Part shown: positions 723-27,250 of the stretch, in pieces
Layout: each line of letters starts with the position of its first letter
Position numbering within the stretch: position 1 is the stretch's first letter
Source of the DNA: Oscillospiraceae bacterium
GTDB lineage: Bacteria > Bacillota > Clostridia > Oscillospirales > Oscillospiraceae
Reading direction: 5' to 3'
DNA length: 33,877 nt
Assembly: GCA_902774015.1 (NCBI GenBank)
Contig: CACYHB010000022.1
Location: forward strand, 1-33,877
Notes under the pieces: model-generated
What the model saw: only the letters and a program-made list of their open reading frames with translations
The model's database searches: none
What the model was told of the DNA's origin: nothing
Program-made: the position numbers and the translations under genes

Positions 723-1979
723 TCAGGCCTGTCCCTTGATCCTTTCCCAATAACTCTTCGCCGCCTGCTCCGTCTTGTTGTCGCCGTATTCGTAGTACTT
801 CACGCCCCGCAGCTCGTCGGGCAGGTTCTGCTGCCGGACCCAGTGGCCGGGGTAGTCGTGGGGGTATTTGTAGCCCTGCTCCCGCTCAAAGCCCGTGCCG
901 TCGGCGTGGGCGTTCTGCAGCTCGCGCGGGACGCCGCCGGTCTTCCCGGCCTTCACGTCGCCCCAGGCCTTTCCGATGGCCGCGGCGCTGCTGTTGGACT
1001 TGGGGGCCGTGGCCAGCAGCACGGCGGCCTCGGCCAGCGGAAGCTGCGCCTCCGGGAGGCCCAGCTGCAGCGCCGAGTCCACGCAGGATTTCACGATGGG
1101 CACCGCCTGAGGCCAGGCGAGGCCCACGTCCTCGCTGGCGGAGCAGAGGAGCCGCCGGCAGGCGCCGATCAGGTCCCCGGCCTCCAGAAGCCGCGCCAGA
1201 TAGTGCAGCGCCGCGTCGGGGTCCGAGCCGCGCAGGGACTTCATCAGGCCCGAAAGGATGTCGTAGTGGTCGTCCCCCTCCCGATCGTAGCGCATGGCGC
1301 TGCGCTGGGAGATGGCCTCGGCGTCCTCCAGGGAGATGCTGTTCCGGTCCCGGGCGGCAGAGAAAAGCAGCTCCACCGCGTTGATGGCCTTGCGCACGTC
1401 CCCGCCGCAGCCGGAGGCGATCCGGGCCGTGACGCCCTCGGCCGGGCGCAGCGGCGTTTCGCGTCTCGCGTTGAGGATCTTCACCGCGCGCCGCACCGCG
1501 CGCTCCGCGTCGGCGGGCGTGACGGGCTTGAACTCAAAGACCGTGGACCGGCTGAGGATCGCGTTGAATACGTAGAAATAGGGGTTTTCGGTGGTGGAGG
1601 CGATGAGCGTGATGCGCCCGTCCTCAATAAACTCCAGCAGGGACTGCTGCTGCTTTTTGTTGAAGTACTGGATCTCGTCCAGATACAGCAGCACGCCGCC
1701 CGGCGTGAGAAATGTGTCCAGCTCGTCGATGATGCGCTTGACGTCCGCAATGCCCGCGGTGGTGGCGTTCAGCTTGCGCAGACTGCGATTGGTGCGCTCG
1801 GCGATGATGCGGGCCACGGTCGTCTTGCCCGTGCCGGAGGGGCCGTAGAAGATCATGTTGGGGATCTGCCCGCTCTCCACGATCCGGCGCAGCATGCCGT
1901 TTTCGCCGAGGATATGCCGCTGGCCCACCACATCCTCCAGCGTCGTGGGGCGGATCTCATCCGCAAGTGGTTTGTACAT
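723..1979 (-). CDS. rarA: Replication-associated recombination protein A (AAA ATPase RarA/MgsA)
   Basis: RarA acts at stalled replication forks together with SSB and belongs to the clamp-loader-like AAA+ ATPases. The 418-residue protein shows Walker A GPSGTGKT (46-53), Walker B LYLDEIQYFN (about 99-108), an STTENPYF sensor-1 segment, and the C-terminal tetramerisation region containing SGLMKSLRGSDPDAALHYLARL and KYPHDYPGHWV, both typical of the family. I start at ATG 1979 (MYKPLADEIRPTTLEDVVGQ) because family homology begins there; an upstream in-frame ATG at 2090 would add 37 residues encoded by hairpin-rich intergenic DNA. The ribosome binding site is weak. It lies downstream of the cation transporter gene on the same strand, beyond a structured 275-bp gap. 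Confidence 0.93.
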   Translation of the reverse strand: MYKPLADEIRPTTLEDVVGQRHILGENGMLRRIVESGQIPNMIFYGPSGTGKTTVARIIAERTNRSLRKLNATTAGIADVKRIIDELDTFLTPGGVLLYLDEIQYFNKKQQQSLLEFIEDGRITLIASTTENPYFYVFNAILSRSTVFEFKPVTPADAERAVRRAVKILNARRETPLRPAEGVTARIASGCGGDVRKAINAVELLFSAARDRNSISLEDAEAISQRSAMRYDREGDDHYDILSGLMKSLRGSDPDAALHYLARLLEAGDLIGACRRLLCSASEDVGLAWPQAVPIVKSCVDSALQLGLPEAQLPLAEAAVLLATAPKSNSSAAAIGKAWGDVKAGKTGGVPRELQNAHADGTGFEREQGYKYPHDYPGHWVRQQNLPDELRGVKYYEYGDNKTEQAAKSYWERIKGQA

Positions 1980-7110: not shown

Positions 7111-8127
7111 TCAGCGGGCGACCAGGCCCACCTTTTTATAGACTTTGCGCAGCGTCCTGTTGGCGATATACGAGGCTCGCTCCGCGCCGTCCTTGCAGAG
7201 GCTGTCCAGATAAGCCTTGTCCTTCATGATCTTCTGCGCCTCCTCGCGGATGGGCCGCAGGGTCTCGATCACGGCCTCGCCCACGGCGGGCTTGAAGACG
7301 CCGTAGCCCTTGCCGTCGAACTCCCGCTCGATCTCGTCGAAGCTCTTGCCGGTGACGGCGGCGTAAATGCTCATCAGGTTCGCCACGCCCGGCTTGTTCT
7401 CCGGATCGTAGCGCACGCAGCGCTCCGTGTCGGAGTCGGTGACGGCGCGCTTGAACTTGCGGGCGATGTCCTCGGGCTTGTCCATCAGGCAGACGCGGCC
7501 GTTGCCGATCTCGTCAGACTTGGACATTTTGCTGCGCGGGTCCAGCAGATCCATTACGCGGGCGCCCACCTTGGGGATATAGGGCTCAGGGACCTTGAAG
7601 GTCTCGCCGTAGAGATTGTTGAAGCGCTGTGCCACGTCGCGCGTCAGCTCCACGTGCTGCTTCTGATCGTCGCCGACGGGGACGAAGTCCGGCTGGTAGA
7701 GCAGGATGTCGGCCGCCATGAGGGAGGGATAGGTAAAGAGGCCGCCGTTGATGTTGTCGGCGTTCTTGGCGCTCTTGTCCTTGAACTGGGTCATGCGGCT
7801 CAGCTCACCGAACATGGTGTAGCAGTTGAGGATCCAGCCCAGCTCCGCGTGGGCGGGGACGTGGGACTGAATAAAGAGCGTGTTTTTCTGCGGGTCCAGG
7901 CCGCAGGCCACGTACTGGGCCAGCTGCTCCAGGGTGCGGCGGCGCAGGTCGGCGGGGTTGTTGCGTGTGGTGAGCGCATGCAGGTCCGCCATAAAATAGT
8001 AGCAGTCAAACTGCTCGGCGCGTTCGCTCCAGTTCTTGATGGCGCCCAGATAGGAGCCCAGCGTCAGATCGCCGGTGGGCTTGATGCCGGAGAGCATTAC
8101 CTTTTTCGCGGGAGTCGTCGTATCCAT
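7111..8127 (-). CDS. trpS: Tryptophanyl-tRNA synthetase
   Basis: This class I synthetase charges tRNA-Trp. The 338-residue length is normal. The HIGH-equivalent is LTLGSYLGAI (21-30), after SGIKPTGD, and the KMSKS loop is SKMSKSDE. The family segments PVGDDQKQHVELTRDVAQRFN and GGLFTYPSLMAADILLY are present. I start at ATG 8127 (MDTTTPAKKVMLSG), which has GAGGTG seven bases upstream. The longer in-frame extension to 8253 is encoded by the end of repeat element A and is not real. It leads the trpS-tagO transcript. I looked for a T-box leader and saw none. Confidence 0.95.
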   Translation of the reverse strand: MDTTTPAKKVMLSGIKPTGDLTLGSYLGAIKNWSERAEQFDCYYFMADLHALTTRNNPADLRRRTLEQLAQYVACGLDPQKNTLFIQSHVPAHAELGWILNCYTMFGELSRMTQFKDKSAKNADNINGGLFTYPSLMAADILLYQPDFVPVGDDQKQHVELTRDVAQRFNNLYGETFKVPEPYIPKVGARVMDLLDPRSKMSKSDEIGNGRVCLMDKPEDIARKFKRAVTDSDTERCVRYDPENKPGVANLMSIYAAVTGKSFDEIEREFDGKGYGVFKPAVGEAVIETLRPIREEAQKIMKDKAYLDSLCKDGAERASYIANRTLRKVYKKVGLVAR

Positions 8128-8175
8128 AAACACACCTCGTATAAGAAATTCTTTTCTTCTCGCCTGGTCATAAGA

Positions 8176-8690
8176 GGCAAGCTGCGTAGAGCAAAACCCA
8201 TTTCTTTCCCATTGGGGAAAGAAACGGTTTTTGATGCCAAAGAAAGGCAACAAGGGGAAGATTCCCCTTGACCCCTCGCAGAATTGGGGAGTCTAAGGGA
8301 AAAAACGTGGTCGCCGCTAAAGCAGGTACGCGTGGCTGGTGGTTCCGCATACCGCTGCCGCTCCCCGGTGCTTCTGGCGCAGAAAGTGGCCCGCTCCAGG
8401 CCGCGGCTCGTCGGGCGGAGCATTTCGGGCCGTCGAGGACGCCGACCCCTACAAGCATGACTGCCAAGAGTCGAGCCGCCGTGCGGTGCTTTTGAGCGCC
8501 GCGATTTGTACTCCATAGCGGCAGCGGACACCGGGGGGGTACCGGGCATGCCAACATTAGGACGGCGGCGACGTTCGATCAAACCTTGTGTTGCCCATTC
8601 TGGCAAGCGCTCTTTTCTTTCTTACACCGGGCGCGGCGCGTTCTTTCTTTTCTCAAGAAGAAAAGAAAGAATGGGGGGCGCATCACGCAG
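8176..8690 (+). repeat. Large non-coding repeat element, copy A
   Basis: About 515 bp between divergent trpS and a GNAT gene. The left end (8176-8240) contains a hairpin CATTTCTTTCCC/GGGAAAGAAACG. The right end (8640-8690) contains TTCTTTCTTTTCT/AAGAAAAGAAAGAA followed by ATGGGGGGCGCATCACGCAG. The core shares long blocks with copies B and C: GGGCCGTCGAGGACGCCG (8427-8444), the GCGGCAGCGG block (8516-8532) and CCAACATT-x-GGACGGCGGCGAC (8551-8572). Open frames inside are Arg/Pro-rich, have no ribosome binding sites and differ between copies, so I treat it as non-coding. Its left end lies about 50 bp upstream of trpS. Confidence 0.85.
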
Positions 8691-8793
8691 CGTCGTCTCT
8701 GTGAACAGGTGATAATAAAACGCTGCGCGTTTGTCTTTGCGGCAGTTTCTGTTTCTTTGTAGCAAAATAGTATTTTAGCAAAAGAAATGCATC

Positions 8794-8822
8794 TTGACAA
8801 CAGGGAAAATGTAAAATAAGAT
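8794..8822 (+). promoter_or_regulatory. Sigma-A promoter of the GNAT-gltX transcript
   Basis: TTGACA (8794-8799), 17-base spacer, TAAGAT (8817-8822). Start near 8829, giving a short leader to ATG 8856. Confidence 0.7.
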
Positions 8823-16237: not shown

Positions 16238-18817
16238 TCAGCGGCAGATCAGCTCGCCGTCCCGCACGTCCACGGTGAGGGTGCTGCCGGCGGCGAGGTC
16301 GCCCCGCAGGATGGTGCGGGCCAGGAGGGTCTCCACACTGCTCTGCAGATAGCGGCGCAGCGGGCGCGCGCCGTAGAGCGGATCGTAGCCCCGCTCGATG
16401 ATGAGCGCCTTGGCCTCGTCGGTGATGACCAGCTTCAGGCTGCGCTCGCCGAGACGCCGGCGCAGCGACTCCACCATGATGTCGATGATGCCGGTGAGAT
16501 TCTCCTTCGTCAGCGGCTTGAAGAGGATGGTCTCATCCAGACGGTTCAGAAATTCCGGCCGGAAGCTGCGCTTGAGATCGCGCATGACCAGCTCCTGCGC
16601 TTCCCCGGAGATGCTGCCGTCGGGCTGGATGCCGTCCAGCAGATACTGGCTGCCCAGGTTGGAGGTGAGGATGATGATGGTATTCTTGAAGTCCACGGTG
16701 CGGCCCTGGGAGTCGGTGATGCGGCCGTCGTCCAGGATCTGCAGCAGGATGTTGAACACGTCGGGGTGAGCCTTCTCGATCTCATCAAAGAGCACCACGC
16801 TGTAGGGCTTGCGGCGCACGGCCTCGGTGAGCTGGCCGCCCTCGTCGTAGCCCACGTATCCCGGAGGCGCGCCGATGAGACGGGAGACGGAGAACTTCTC
16901 CATATACTCGGTCATGTCGATGCGCACGATGTTGTGCTCGTCGTCAAAGAGGCTCTCGGCCAGGCTCTTGGCCAGCTCCGTCTTGCCCACGCCCGTGGGG
17001 CCGAGGAAGAGGAAGGAGCCGATGGGCCGGTTGGGATCCGCGATGCCGGCGCGGGAGCGGAGGATGGCCTCCGTCACCTTCTGCACGGCCTCGTCCTGGC
17101 CGACGACGCGCTTATGAAGCTGCTCGTCCAGATGCAGGATCTTCTCCCGCTCCCCCTCCATGAGCCGGGAGACCGGGATGCCGGTCCACTTGGCAACGAT
17201 GCCGGAGATCTCCTCCTCGGTGACGGTATCGTGCACCATGGAGTTCTGCCGGCTGTCCTCGGAGAGCTTCTCCGCCTCCTGCAGCTTCCGCTCCAGGGCG
17301 GGCAGCTCGGAATAGCGCAGGCGGGCCGCCGTCTCGTACTCGTAGCGGAGCTGGGCGTTTTCGATATCCGCGTGCATCTTCTCGATCTCGGACTTGAGGC
17401 GCTTGACCTCGTCCACGCTGTTTTTCTCCGCTTCCCAGCGGGACTTCATGGCGTTGAACTGATCCTTGAGATTGGCAAGCTCCTCCCGGAGCTTGCTCAG
17501 GCGCTCCTGACTGAGCTGGTCCTCTTCCTTCTTGAGGGCCATCTCCTCGATCTCCATCTGCATGATCTTGCGGCGGATATCGTCCAGCTCCGCGGGCATG
17601 GAGTCGATCTCCGTGCGGATCAGGGCGCAGGCCTCGTCCACCAGGTCGATGGCCTTGTCAGGCAGGAAGCGGTCGGTGATGTAGCGGTGGGAGAGGGTCG
17701 CCGCCGCCACAAGCGCGTTGTCGTGGATGCGCACGCCGTGGTAGACCTCGTAGCGCTCCTTCAGGCCGCGCAGAATGGAAATGGTGTCCTCCACGGTGGG
17801 CTCGTCTACCAGCACCGGCTGGAAACGCCGCTCCAGCGCCGCGTCCTTTTCGATGTACTTGCGGTATTCGTCCAGTGTGGTTGCGCCGATGCAGTGCAGC
17901 TCGCCCCGGGCCAGCATCGGCTTCAGGAGATTGCCCGCGTCCATGCTGCCCTCGGTTTTGCCCGCGCCGACGATGGTATGCAGCTCGTCGATGAAGAGGA
18001 TGATGCCGCCCTCGGACTTGCGGATCTCCTCCAGCACCGCCTTCAGCCGCTCCTCAAACTCGCCCCGGTATTTGGCGCCTGCGATCAGCGCGCCCATGTC
18101 CAGGGAGAAGATGGTCTTGTCCTTGAGTCCCTCCGGCACGTCCCCGCGCACGATGCGCTGGGCCAGGCCCTCGGCGATGGCGGTCTTGCCCACGCCGGGT
18201 TCGCCGATGAGGACGGGGTTGTTCTTTGTCTTGCGGGAGAGGATGCGGATCACGTTGCGGATCTCGTTGTCCCGCCCGATGACCGGGTCCAGCTCGTTCT
18301 CCCGGGCGCGCTTGACCAGATCCGTGCCGTACTTTGCCAGGGCGTCGTAGGTACTCTCGGGGTTGTCGCCGGTGACGGGCGCGGTCTTGACCTTGCTCAG
18401 TTCCGTCGTGAAGGCGGCCTTGGTGATGCCGTGGTCGGCGAAGATACGCTTGATGGCCGGGGTCGCGACGGCGAAAATGCCGATCATCAGGTGCTCCACG
18501 GAGGTGTATTCGTCCCCCATGGACTTGGCGGCCTTCTCGGCGGCGTTGAGCACGCGGCTCGCCTCGGAGGAGAGATACACCTCGCCGCTCTGACCCACCT
18601 TGGGGAGCGCCGAGATGGCGGTGTCCAGTTCCGCGAGGACCGCGTTGCAGTCCACGCCCATCTTGCCGAGCAGAGAGGGGATCAGCCCGCCGTCCTGGTC
18701 GATGAGGGCGTAGAGCAGATGCTCCGGCGCGATATAATTGTTGCGGTTTTCCTGAGCCATGGCCTGTGCGGTCTGCACGGCCTCCAGGCTCTTCTGCGTG
18801 TAGTTGCTGGCGTTCAT
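16238..18817 (-). CDS. clpB: ATP-dependent disaggregase ClpB
   Basis: ClpB is a hexameric AAA+ chaperone that works with DnaK to pull apart aggregated proteins. The 859-residue protein has the N-terminal Clp repeat domain (SLEAVQTAQ...[11 protein letters not shown]), AAA module 1 with GEPGVGKT and LFIDELHT, the middle coiled-coil domain (about 400-520, rich in Glu/Lys/Arg heptads), and AAA module 2 with [23 protein letters not shown] and the C-terminal GARPLRR. Start ATG 18817 ([15 protein letters not shown]) has GGAGGTG seven bases upstream; the ATG at 18832 is the ribosome binding site itself. No CIRCE operator is seen. Repeat element B ends about 60 bp upstream of the start. Confidence 0.96.
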
Positions 18818-18878
18818 AACAACACCTCCCAAAAGGAAGATTTATAATATTCTTTCCTGCATGACAGCAGATATTTCT

Positions 18879-19400
18879 CTGCGTAATTGCGCCCCCCATT
18901 CTTTCTTTTTGGAGCTTGCCCAAAAAGAAAGAATGCGCCGCGCCCGGTGGAAGAAAGAAAAAGGCGCTTGTCAGAGTGGGCGACACAAGGTCTGAGCGTG
19001 GGTCGCCGCCGTCCGAATGTTGGAATCCCCGGTGCACCCTGGTGTTCGCTGCCGCTATGCTGTGCAGATCGGGGCGCTCATAAGCACACCCCGGCGGCTC
19101 GACGCCTGCCAGTCAGGTTTGCAGGTGCCGGCGTCCTCGACGGCCCGAAGTGATACTCTCGGCGAGCCGCGGTCTGGAGCGGGCTGCTTTCTTCGTCGGA
19201 AGTACCGGAGAGCGGCAGCGGTATGCGGAGAACACAGCCTCGCGTACCTGCTTTAGCGGCGACCCCGGATCTGCCCTTAGACTCCCCAATCGGGGAGAGG
19301 AGTCCAGAGGAGACCTCCTCTGGTCGCCTTTCTTTGGAGTGTAAGAACCGTTTCTTTCCGCGAACAGGAAAGAAATGGTTCTTGATATGCGCAGCTTGCC
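18879..19400 (-). repeat. Large non-coding repeat element, copy B (inverted relative to A)
   Basis: About 522 bp, the reverse complement of copy A end to end. It opens with CTGCGTAATTGCGCCCCCC and hairpin ATTCTTTCTTTTTGG/CCAAAAAGAAAGAAT, and closes with hairpin CGTTTCTTTCC/GGAAAGAAATGG and GCGCAGCTTGCC. Core blocks: GTCGCCGCCGTCCGAATGTT (from 19002), GGTGTTCGCTGCCGCTA (19041-19057) and CGGCGTCCTCGACGGCCC (19129-19146). It lies between the RHH gene and clpB, both on the minus strand. No conserved reading frame or transposase is present. Confidence 0.85.
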
Positions 19401-19476
19401 GTCTCTGCCGACACGCTGCAGAATAACGCACATGTTCTTCTGCATGCTTCCCCCGTTGGCGGAAGGCCGGGATCTG

Positions 19477-20312: not shown

Positions 20313-20404
20313 GGAGGGTTACTCAAGTGGTCGAAGAGGCGTGACTCGAAATCTCGTAGGCCGGTAACTCCGGTGCTAGGGTTCAAATCCCTAACCCTCC
20401 GCCA
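20313..20404 (+). tRNA. tRNA-Ser (anticodon CGA)
   Basis: The 92-base gene folds as a type II tRNA. The acceptor arm is GGAGGGT/ACCCTCC with discriminator G and encoded CCA (20402-20404). The D arm is CTC/GAG, the T arm TAGGG-TTCAAAT-CCCTA, and the long variable arm has GGCCGG/CCGGT-type pairing. The anticodon loop CTCGAAA places CGA at 20347-20349, reading UCG. The anticodon stem is CGTGA against TCTCG, leaving T20342 opposite T20354, an unusual mismatch; all other pairs are sound. Serine identity follows from the anticodon, G73 and the long variable arm. Confidence 0.95.
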
Positions 20405-26906: not shown

Positions 26907-26945
26907 TCGTAAACATTGCTCTCCAACGTGTACACAGAGCCAACG

Positions 26946-27250
26946 TTGCGTGATGCGCCCCCAAGCCGCGACTCGTCGGATGGATTGCTGCGGGCCGTCG
27001 AGGACGCCGGCCCCTACAAGTGTACTTTACGTTGTCGAGCCGCCGGGACGTGCTTTTCGGAGTTTTCGTGCTGTAAAGTACAGCGGCAGCGGACACCGGG
27101 GCGCACCGGGCATGCCAACATTCGGACGGCGGCGACCCGCGATCAGACCTTATGGTACCCGTTTTGACAGGCGGCCTTTCTCTTTGGAGTACAAGAACCG
27201 TTTCTCTTTCCCCAAGAGGAAAGAGAAATGGGTCTTGATAACCGCTGCAT
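26946..27250 (+). repeat. Large non-coding repeat element, copy C (short, rearranged)
   Basis: About 305 bp between convergent ppaC and the glycoside-hydrolase-like gene. The core reads in the same direction as copy A: GGGCCGTCGAGGACGCCG (26992-27009), CAGCGGCAGCGGACACC (27081-27097) and the CCAACATT-C-GGACGGCGGCGAC block (27115-27136). The ends are reversed: the left starts TTGCGTGATGCGCCCCC, the reverse complement of A's right end, and the right finishes with CAAGAACCGTTTCTC and a hairpin matching A's left end reversed. It lacks about 165 bp found in A and B. A private inverted repeat TGTACTTTAC (27021-27030)/GTAAAGTACA (27073-27082) is present. Confidence 0.8.

Follow-up and report, generated by a model that had tools for sequence, protein, structure and literature searches.

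A probable family of MITE-like, non-autonomous foldback elements, modular like BOX, from a genus of Oscillospiraceae-type bacteria

Background

Correia elements of Neisseria and IS630-type MITEs target TA and have ends starting with TATA, and the BOX repeat is composed of boxA, boxB and boxC. In the accessible part of its description, BOX of Streptococcus pneumoniae is a multi-module intergenic repeat with extensive secondary structure, likely co-transcribed and judged parasitic (PMC3049150). GTAG-tagged REPs are a further described class, and the accessible sections of the paper on them describe REPs flanking RAYT genes as well as REPs inside other genes (PMC3733652).

We describe here a repeat with three copies in the window, that is, the whole 33.9-kb stretch of DNA analysed. 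It resembles each of these systems in part. A TA target and TATA ends would be suggestive of Correia elements and IS630-type MITEs; however, the source genome has no DDE_3 (PF13358), and DDE_3 does not track the element. As in MITEs, there are terminal inverted repeats, no coding sequence, many dispersed intergenic copies, folding ends and empty orthologous sites, but the element differs in its length (~550 bp, against 70-300 bp in the accessible part of PMC3733652), in being modular and in that no parental insertion sequence was found. It has modules, intergenic location and secondary structure in common with BOX (PMC3049150, in part), a likeness of architecture, whereas in the Oscillospiraceae element whole arms are exchanged or inverted. 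A nested block at 8427-8453 is a palindrome tagged GTAG, as in GTAG REP/RAYT systems (PMC3733652, in part); the whole element, however, exceeds it about twentyfold in length, differs in its ends and is present in genomes without a Y1 match. A literature search that left most subscription journals outside its coverage returned no description of such repeats in this bacterial group.

We consider it probable (roughly 0.75) that these repeats constitute a previously undescribed family of foldback DNA, MITE-like and non-autonomous, whose members are ~550 bp long, show BOX-like modularity and occur in one genus of Oscillospiraceae-type bacteria. Such a family would add a large set of intergenic mobile DNA for bacteria known mostly from metagenomes.

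Architecture of the window copies

A repeat search resolved the three related non-coding stretches of the window into two full copies and a rearranged one. Copy 2, on the opposite strand (18879-19400), matches copy 1 (8176-8690) at 81% across all 515 bases, and the repeat search recovered two arms between them, one of 254 nt and one of 117 nt, that are 83-85% alike; copy 3 matches the others in blocks of 59-109 nt at 78-83%. The preliminary description had reported three copies of about 515 bp with long blocks in common. All three were recovered, and the repeat search finds the blocks, but copy 3 is partial and rearranged, the ends lie 15-21 bp further out, the block GGGCCGTCGAGGACGCCG belongs to another repeat that is nested in the element, and there are about 38 places in the genome rather than three.

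Read and folded past those ends, copy 1 extends from about 8161 to 8711 (+), complete from A end to B end, within the trpS leader. A full copy is a non-coding element of ~550 bp closed at both ends by imperfect terminal inverted repeats of ~27 bp, which are seen at many ends; those of copy 1, read at 8161-8187 (A end) and 8685-8711 (B end) as CGCCTGGTCATAAGAGGCAAGCTGCGT versus CACCTGTTCACAGAGACGACGCTGCGT, are imperfect and pair with each other in the fold. Between them, all on the + strand, lie the A-end hairpin (8193-8232; fold and covariation), a short stem CAAGGGG..CCCCTTG (8251-8270; read and found in the fold), the core stem from GGTCGCCGC to GCGGCGAC (8309-8572; fold and module comparison) with a GTAG-type REP nested at its tip (8427-8453; sequence comparison), and the B-end hairpin (8630-8681; fold and covariation).

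Copy 2, complete and located before clpB, spans 18860-19430 (-) with approximate outer limits, and module comparison places its nested GTAG-type REP at 19120-19146 (-). Copy 3 (26926-27250, +), which gene prediction puts between two convergent genes, consists of half a core, an A-type end at the position of copy 1's B end (hairpin at 27193-27236, -, by module comparison) and, on the other side, the tip of a B end only (26948-26962, -, read and supported by a repeat-search pair). The window also holds a tRNA-Ser (CGA) gene at 20313-20404.

Folding and covariation

Copy 1 folds as a single closed foldback made of hairpin A, core stem and hairpin B, at -266.9 kcal/mol (z -7.0; 0 of 100 dinucleotide shuffles as good), and with z -6.1 when folded as DNA. 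For the copy at locus L011, z was -6.2 for one strand and -5.1 for its complement. Both copies folded beat all 100 dinucleotide shuffles, in agreement with the structure proposed for the element at the outset. For the entire trpS leader strand with copy 1, z was -3.7, and none of 20 shuffles was as good.

The end hairpins covary. Among 22 A ends, 7 of 16 pairs have changed on both sides with pairing kept, and the covariation score is 0.333 against 0.156 in shuffles (reached by 0 of 500) and a maximum of 0.171 when slid; among 32 B ends this holds for 3 of 19 pairs, with a score of 0.171 against 0.063 (again reached by 0 of 500) and a maximum of 0.033 when slid. The number of double-change pairs gives no support for covariation, being matched by 67 (A) and 498 (B) of 500 shuffles, nor does the number of further pair types, matched by 500 (A) and 214 (B) of 500. 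Because the copies sampled are related and offer few independent states, and because template switching in palindromes can also match the arms, covariation is no proof of function here. Arms that are exchanged with pairing kept make the family a natural data set on the evolution of palindromic repeats, in which selection for structure can be set against correction by template switching.

Both end hairpins pair better, via G.T pairs, on their outward-reading strand: on the strand of copy 1, the A end has 17 A.C versus 4 G.T cells (two bulge columns having been added by hand) and the B end 21 G.T versus 0 A.C cells.

Copies across the genome

The source genome (2.78 Mb in 88 contigs, 94% complete, 5.9% contamination) contains 70 matching segments at about 38 places, as grouped by hand. 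We fetched 36 stretches around the places outside the window, some of which contain two copies. Since several contigs start or stop within an element, the true copy number may be higher; L034 and L040 look like both ends of one copy. An exact core pattern had no match in a search of genome contigs. Full copies are pairwise 79-85% alike, although five pairs have 91-162 nt in common at 95-97%; the divergence of 15-21% indicates that movement was not very recent.

The copies are mosaics whose ends, core arms and side modules have been exchanged or turned round. Usually, the A hairpin and the short stem come first, then the left core arm (GGTCGCCGC..., CCGCTGCCGCT..., CGCGGCTCG), an optional REP, the right core arm (CGAGCCGCC..., AGCGGCAGCGG..., GGCGGCGACC) and the B hairpin. 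The core is found in either orientation relative to the ends, and A..A-ended copies exist. An inverted A end takes the place of the B end behind the right arm in L016, L017, L020 and window copy 3. L029, L032 and L043 have another module, with GCCGCTGCC- or GCCGCTCCC-like sequence, in place of the left arm. A further nested repeat (CCTTGCCGC...GCAAT, also given as CCTTGCCGC...GGCACGCAAT) occurs in the A/B elements L012, L017, L020, L026 and L041, and a minimal form, in L036 and L039, has one A hairpin inside terminal repeats. Sequence similar to this nested repeat is also present in L048 and L117.

Empty orthologous sites

Copy 1 starts 49 bp ahead of the trpS ATG at 8127 and sits between this gene and its promoter, TTGTCA-17-TAAAAT (8772-8800, -), found in a promoter scan of the window. 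The promoter and a short leader are kept at trpS in relatives (10 of 29 read). Around trpS, 25 of the 29 relatives have no match to any element sequence and four have short matches (L117, L118, L119 and L124); the 500 bp upstream of trpS hold other repeats in L117, L118 and L124, those of L117 and L124 resembling side modules of the element. In the closest genome, MAG SRR873600_bin.36 (G125), TrpS is 97% identical and the promoter and start region are the same, with no element: 45 of 46 bases agree from the -35 box to ACAAAG, after which TATAAATTC...ACGAGGTG...ATG follows directly. The site is also empty in three more relatives (94-96%), which makes four close relatives read in all. Because relatives keep the promoter and the start region without the element, copy 1 must have inserted into the trpS leader. 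Between ACAAAG and the terminal repeat on the B side of the copy lie 34 unaccounted bases. A long foldback element is thus seen landing in the leader of an essential gene.

The clpB junction, where copy 2 lies, has no A/B element in three relatives (93-95%), a fourth giving only a 53% match; L246 carries a small REP there and L248 other repeats. At the copy 3 junction, G125 and G141 are without an A/B element (G125 has other repeats), and RUG12356 has an A/B element of another build.

Empty sites at orthologous positions support mobility. Together with the dozens of copies, the patchy species spread, the terminal inverted repeats and the absence of coding sequence, they speak for the earlier suggestion of a non-autonomous mobile element, for which copies in dozens and empty orthologous sites had been named as the supporting observations. 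TATA is present at the empty trpS site, at the L248 clpB junction and at the outer edge of many ends. Some copies are flanked on both sides by TATA/GTATA or GCATA, the flanks of L043 look inverted, and no duplication is visible at trpS; as TATA is its own complement, what such flanks can say about target duplication is limited.

In the mechanism that we propose, the element consists of a core stem bounded by two end hairpins and, outside these, by imperfect terminal inverted repeats. A putative transposase acting in trans, for which the end hairpins may be the recognition structures, would insert the element at AT-rich TA/TATA sites between genes, some of them directly behind a promoter. The copies may then have been rewritten as palindromic modules were exchanged or inverted and as small repeats, the GTAG-type REP among them, became nested.

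Position relative to genes and known RNA families

A gene finder based on codon usage, with six genes of the source genome as its training set, placed all elements of the 36 fetched stretches and the three window copies between predicted genes. It predicted no gene inside the element spans, that of L028 merely touching the next gene, and a protein gene was rejected on this ground; the preliminary description had noted open frames within the copies as unconserved and without ribosome binding sites. Its intergenic distances of 50-60 bp before trpS and clpB also agree with those measured, 49 bp for copy 1 and 62 bp for copy 2 (clpB start at 18817; both gene identities by Pfam). The median distance from element to gene is 77.5 bp. 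At the 31 places where both neighbours were predicted, the genes are tandem in 18 cases, convergent in 9 and divergent in 4. One of the 18 tandem copies is A-ended on both sides. In the remaining 17, the next start is faced by the B end 11 times and by the A or truncated side 6 times (p 0.33). As orientation relative to genes varies, a strand-specific RNA function is unlikely.

At the gathering score, Rfam returned only a tRNA in the window. With E up to 1, the region 8100-8800 gave three sub-threshold matches, including Clostridiales-2 RNA at 19.3 bits against 58.6. In 18 of the 36 fetched loci, no family scored above threshold inside an element, Clostridiales-2 RNA did not recur, and the single over-threshold match was outside the element. 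The Rfam search suggested at the outset thus yielded no family at threshold inside the element, and a known RNA was rejected for the window and these 18 of 36 loci. An S10-Clostridia ribosomal protein leader above the gathering score lies at positions 1155-1236 (-) of L015, near but outside an element copy.

These results bear on the possibility, also raised in the preliminary description, that the copies are structured RNAs, trans-acting or leaders, which are kept for a host function and are multi-copy through acting at many genes. The structure is real: the fold is strong, the hairpins covary with scores that 0 of 500 shuffles reach, and copy 1, behind the conserved trpS promoter, should be transcribed. 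However, stability is similar on both strands, the next gene may have either end turned toward it (11 to 6), two orthologous junctions carry the element in opposite orientations, no Rfam family is above threshold inside the element, and the shuffling of modules is unlike a conserved RNA. We therefore think a host RNA function of this kind quite unlikely.

Junctions common to sister species

To compare insertion sites between species, flanking genes were matched on the element-proximal side (loci L045-L108 and L252-L281), a strict test. Four of the 13 sister-MAG element places with fetched flanks (19 places by hand grouping) coincide with sites of the source genome (p 4e-5, given 39 sites among an assumed 2,500 junctions). 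The pairs L012/L062, L039/L073 and L043/L252 coincide on both sides; L034+L040/L104 also coincides, the copy of the source genome being split across two contigs with its middle missing from the assembly. RUG12356 has the L043 site (both sides) and the copy 3 site (two contigs) in common with the source genome, and RGIG3789 the L030 site, on one side. Two candidates were dropped: an hprK junction common to several species, which the strict flank test does not support, the sister-MAG element being on the other side of hprK, and L074/L030, where the element is several kb away.

Elements at common junctions are in opposite orientation at L012/L062 and L043/L252 and in the same orientation at L039/L073, L034+L040/L104 and L043/L258. 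Their build is clearly different at L039/L073, L043 and copy 3, and the core modules of L012/L062 are the same but for a nested repeat. At the cbi junction (L034+L040/L104), one species has GTATA on each flank and the other GCATA, a sequence pattern which suggests separate insertions. At L043, the element lies behind the same promoter-like sequence (TTGACA..TATNTT, read by eye) in three species. Either insertion prefers the same promoter-proximal slots, or old copies were rewritten in place.

The coincidence of 4 of 13 sister sites (p 4e-5 under the assumed 2,500 junctions) and the divergence of 15-21% between full copies could also be expected of old, fixed intergenic repeats that go back to a common ancestor, with recombination between copies reshuffling them and no transposition today. 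Several relatives, however, have no element at the trpS and clpB junctions, the cbi flanks (GTATA twice versus GCATA twice) suggest separate insertions, and orientation is opposite at two common junctions; we find inheritance without movement very unlikely. A more speculative scenario, which we regard as unlikely, is repeated occupation or rewriting of the same promoter-proximal gene junctions in sister species, in opposite orientation at two of them and with other arms at some, pairing being kept. An enzyme system recognizing the hairpin ends would recombine the palindromic arms, and the elements would be exchangeable leader cassettes, not ordinary transposase-dependent MITEs. The MITE-like reading that we prefer has points against it, namely the common sites (4 of 13), the lack of a clean target duplication and the mobilizer, which our searches did not find.

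Distribution and search for a mobilizer

The B end is present in 24 of 102 genomes of the genus, in a patchy manner and with some matches short. An exact B-end pattern was found in 55 stretches of MAGs named Ruminococcaceae, Oscillospiraceae, Clostridia, Clostridiales or Eubacteriales, some of them labelled sheep, goat rumen or roe deer abomasum. Carriage as phage or plasmid cargo was rejected, there being no match at E 1e-5 in plasmid or phage records and no exact B-end pattern in viral contigs, collections that may omit the source genome.

We searched for an autonomous copy with an A-type terminal pattern; in the fragmented assembly of the source genome, 14 of 14 matches are at known copies. 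PF01797 (Y1) matches in 14 of the 24 genomes with a B end, leaving 10 without a match, and in 42 of the 78 others; no PF01797 match occurs in G027 or G110, genomes that carry 8 or more B ends apiece. PF13358 (DDE_3) is found in 4 of 24 genomes with a B end and 13 of 78 without, and is absent from the source genome. Neither profile tracks the element, and a mobilizer of the Y1 or IS630 type that does so was rejected. The Y1 and DDE_3 profile searches and the A-type terminal-pattern search thus produced no mobilizer, which makes it a concrete target for further search.

Mobilization by a Y1 transposase of the IS200/RAYT type, as for REPINs, would fit end hairpins like those of single-strand transposons, the GTAG REP nested in the core and the RAYT-like gene of the source genome. 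Set against the distribution of PF01797 (14 of 24 versus 42 of 78) and its absence from G027 and G110, we hold this route to be extremely improbable.

Nested GTAG REPs and RAYT-like genes

The block GGGCCGTCGAGGACGCCG forms a repeat of its own, a GTAG-type REP set into the core (8427-8453): a palindrome within the 20-40 bp range of that class, with the GTAG tag at one end. The preliminary description had recognized no named element. This stands for the element as a whole, but one of the blocks that it quoted belongs to the GTAG-tagged REPs, a class described in the accessible part of PMC3733652. The sequence GGGCCGTCGAGGACGCCGGCCCCTACA lies at the core tip and is absent from some cores. The REP also occurs alone in genomes of the same genus that have no other element match (query about 251-279; best candidates, at most 10 per genome).

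GTAG REPs are found around RAYT-like genes too. Such a gene is present in the source genome (G000:C7, L191 377-1012, minus strand), and a tandem array of GTAGGGGCGGATATCATCCGCCCG-type REPs lies immediately upstream of it (L191 about 900-1300). We examined 23 RAYT-like Y1 genes of the genus (L191-L193, L201-L220), chosen mainly among the weaker PF01797 matches. In 15 of the 23, two inverted GTAG REPs are located within the reading frame at about the same places. L210 has two REPs of different type in another order, L202, L215, L217 and L220 have one, and L203, L211 and L212 have none by pattern. REP pairs inside RAYT reading frames are not mentioned in the accessible part of PMC3733652; term searches of the available text of PMC2817692, PMC3116915 and PMC8266576 gave no occurrence, and that of PMC6006769 only two unrelated passages. 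Judging from these sequences, the RAYT-like transposase gene seems to contain the very repeat that such transposases are assumed to mobilize. The two REPs of a gene match each other far more closely than REPs taken from different genes, and they do so across several stem types: the 15 pairs (L210 left out) differ by 10 edits, against a mean of 90.5 when shuffled (0 of 20,000), and when each distinct left type is represented by a single gene (10 genes) by 8 edits against 62.4 (0 of 20,000).
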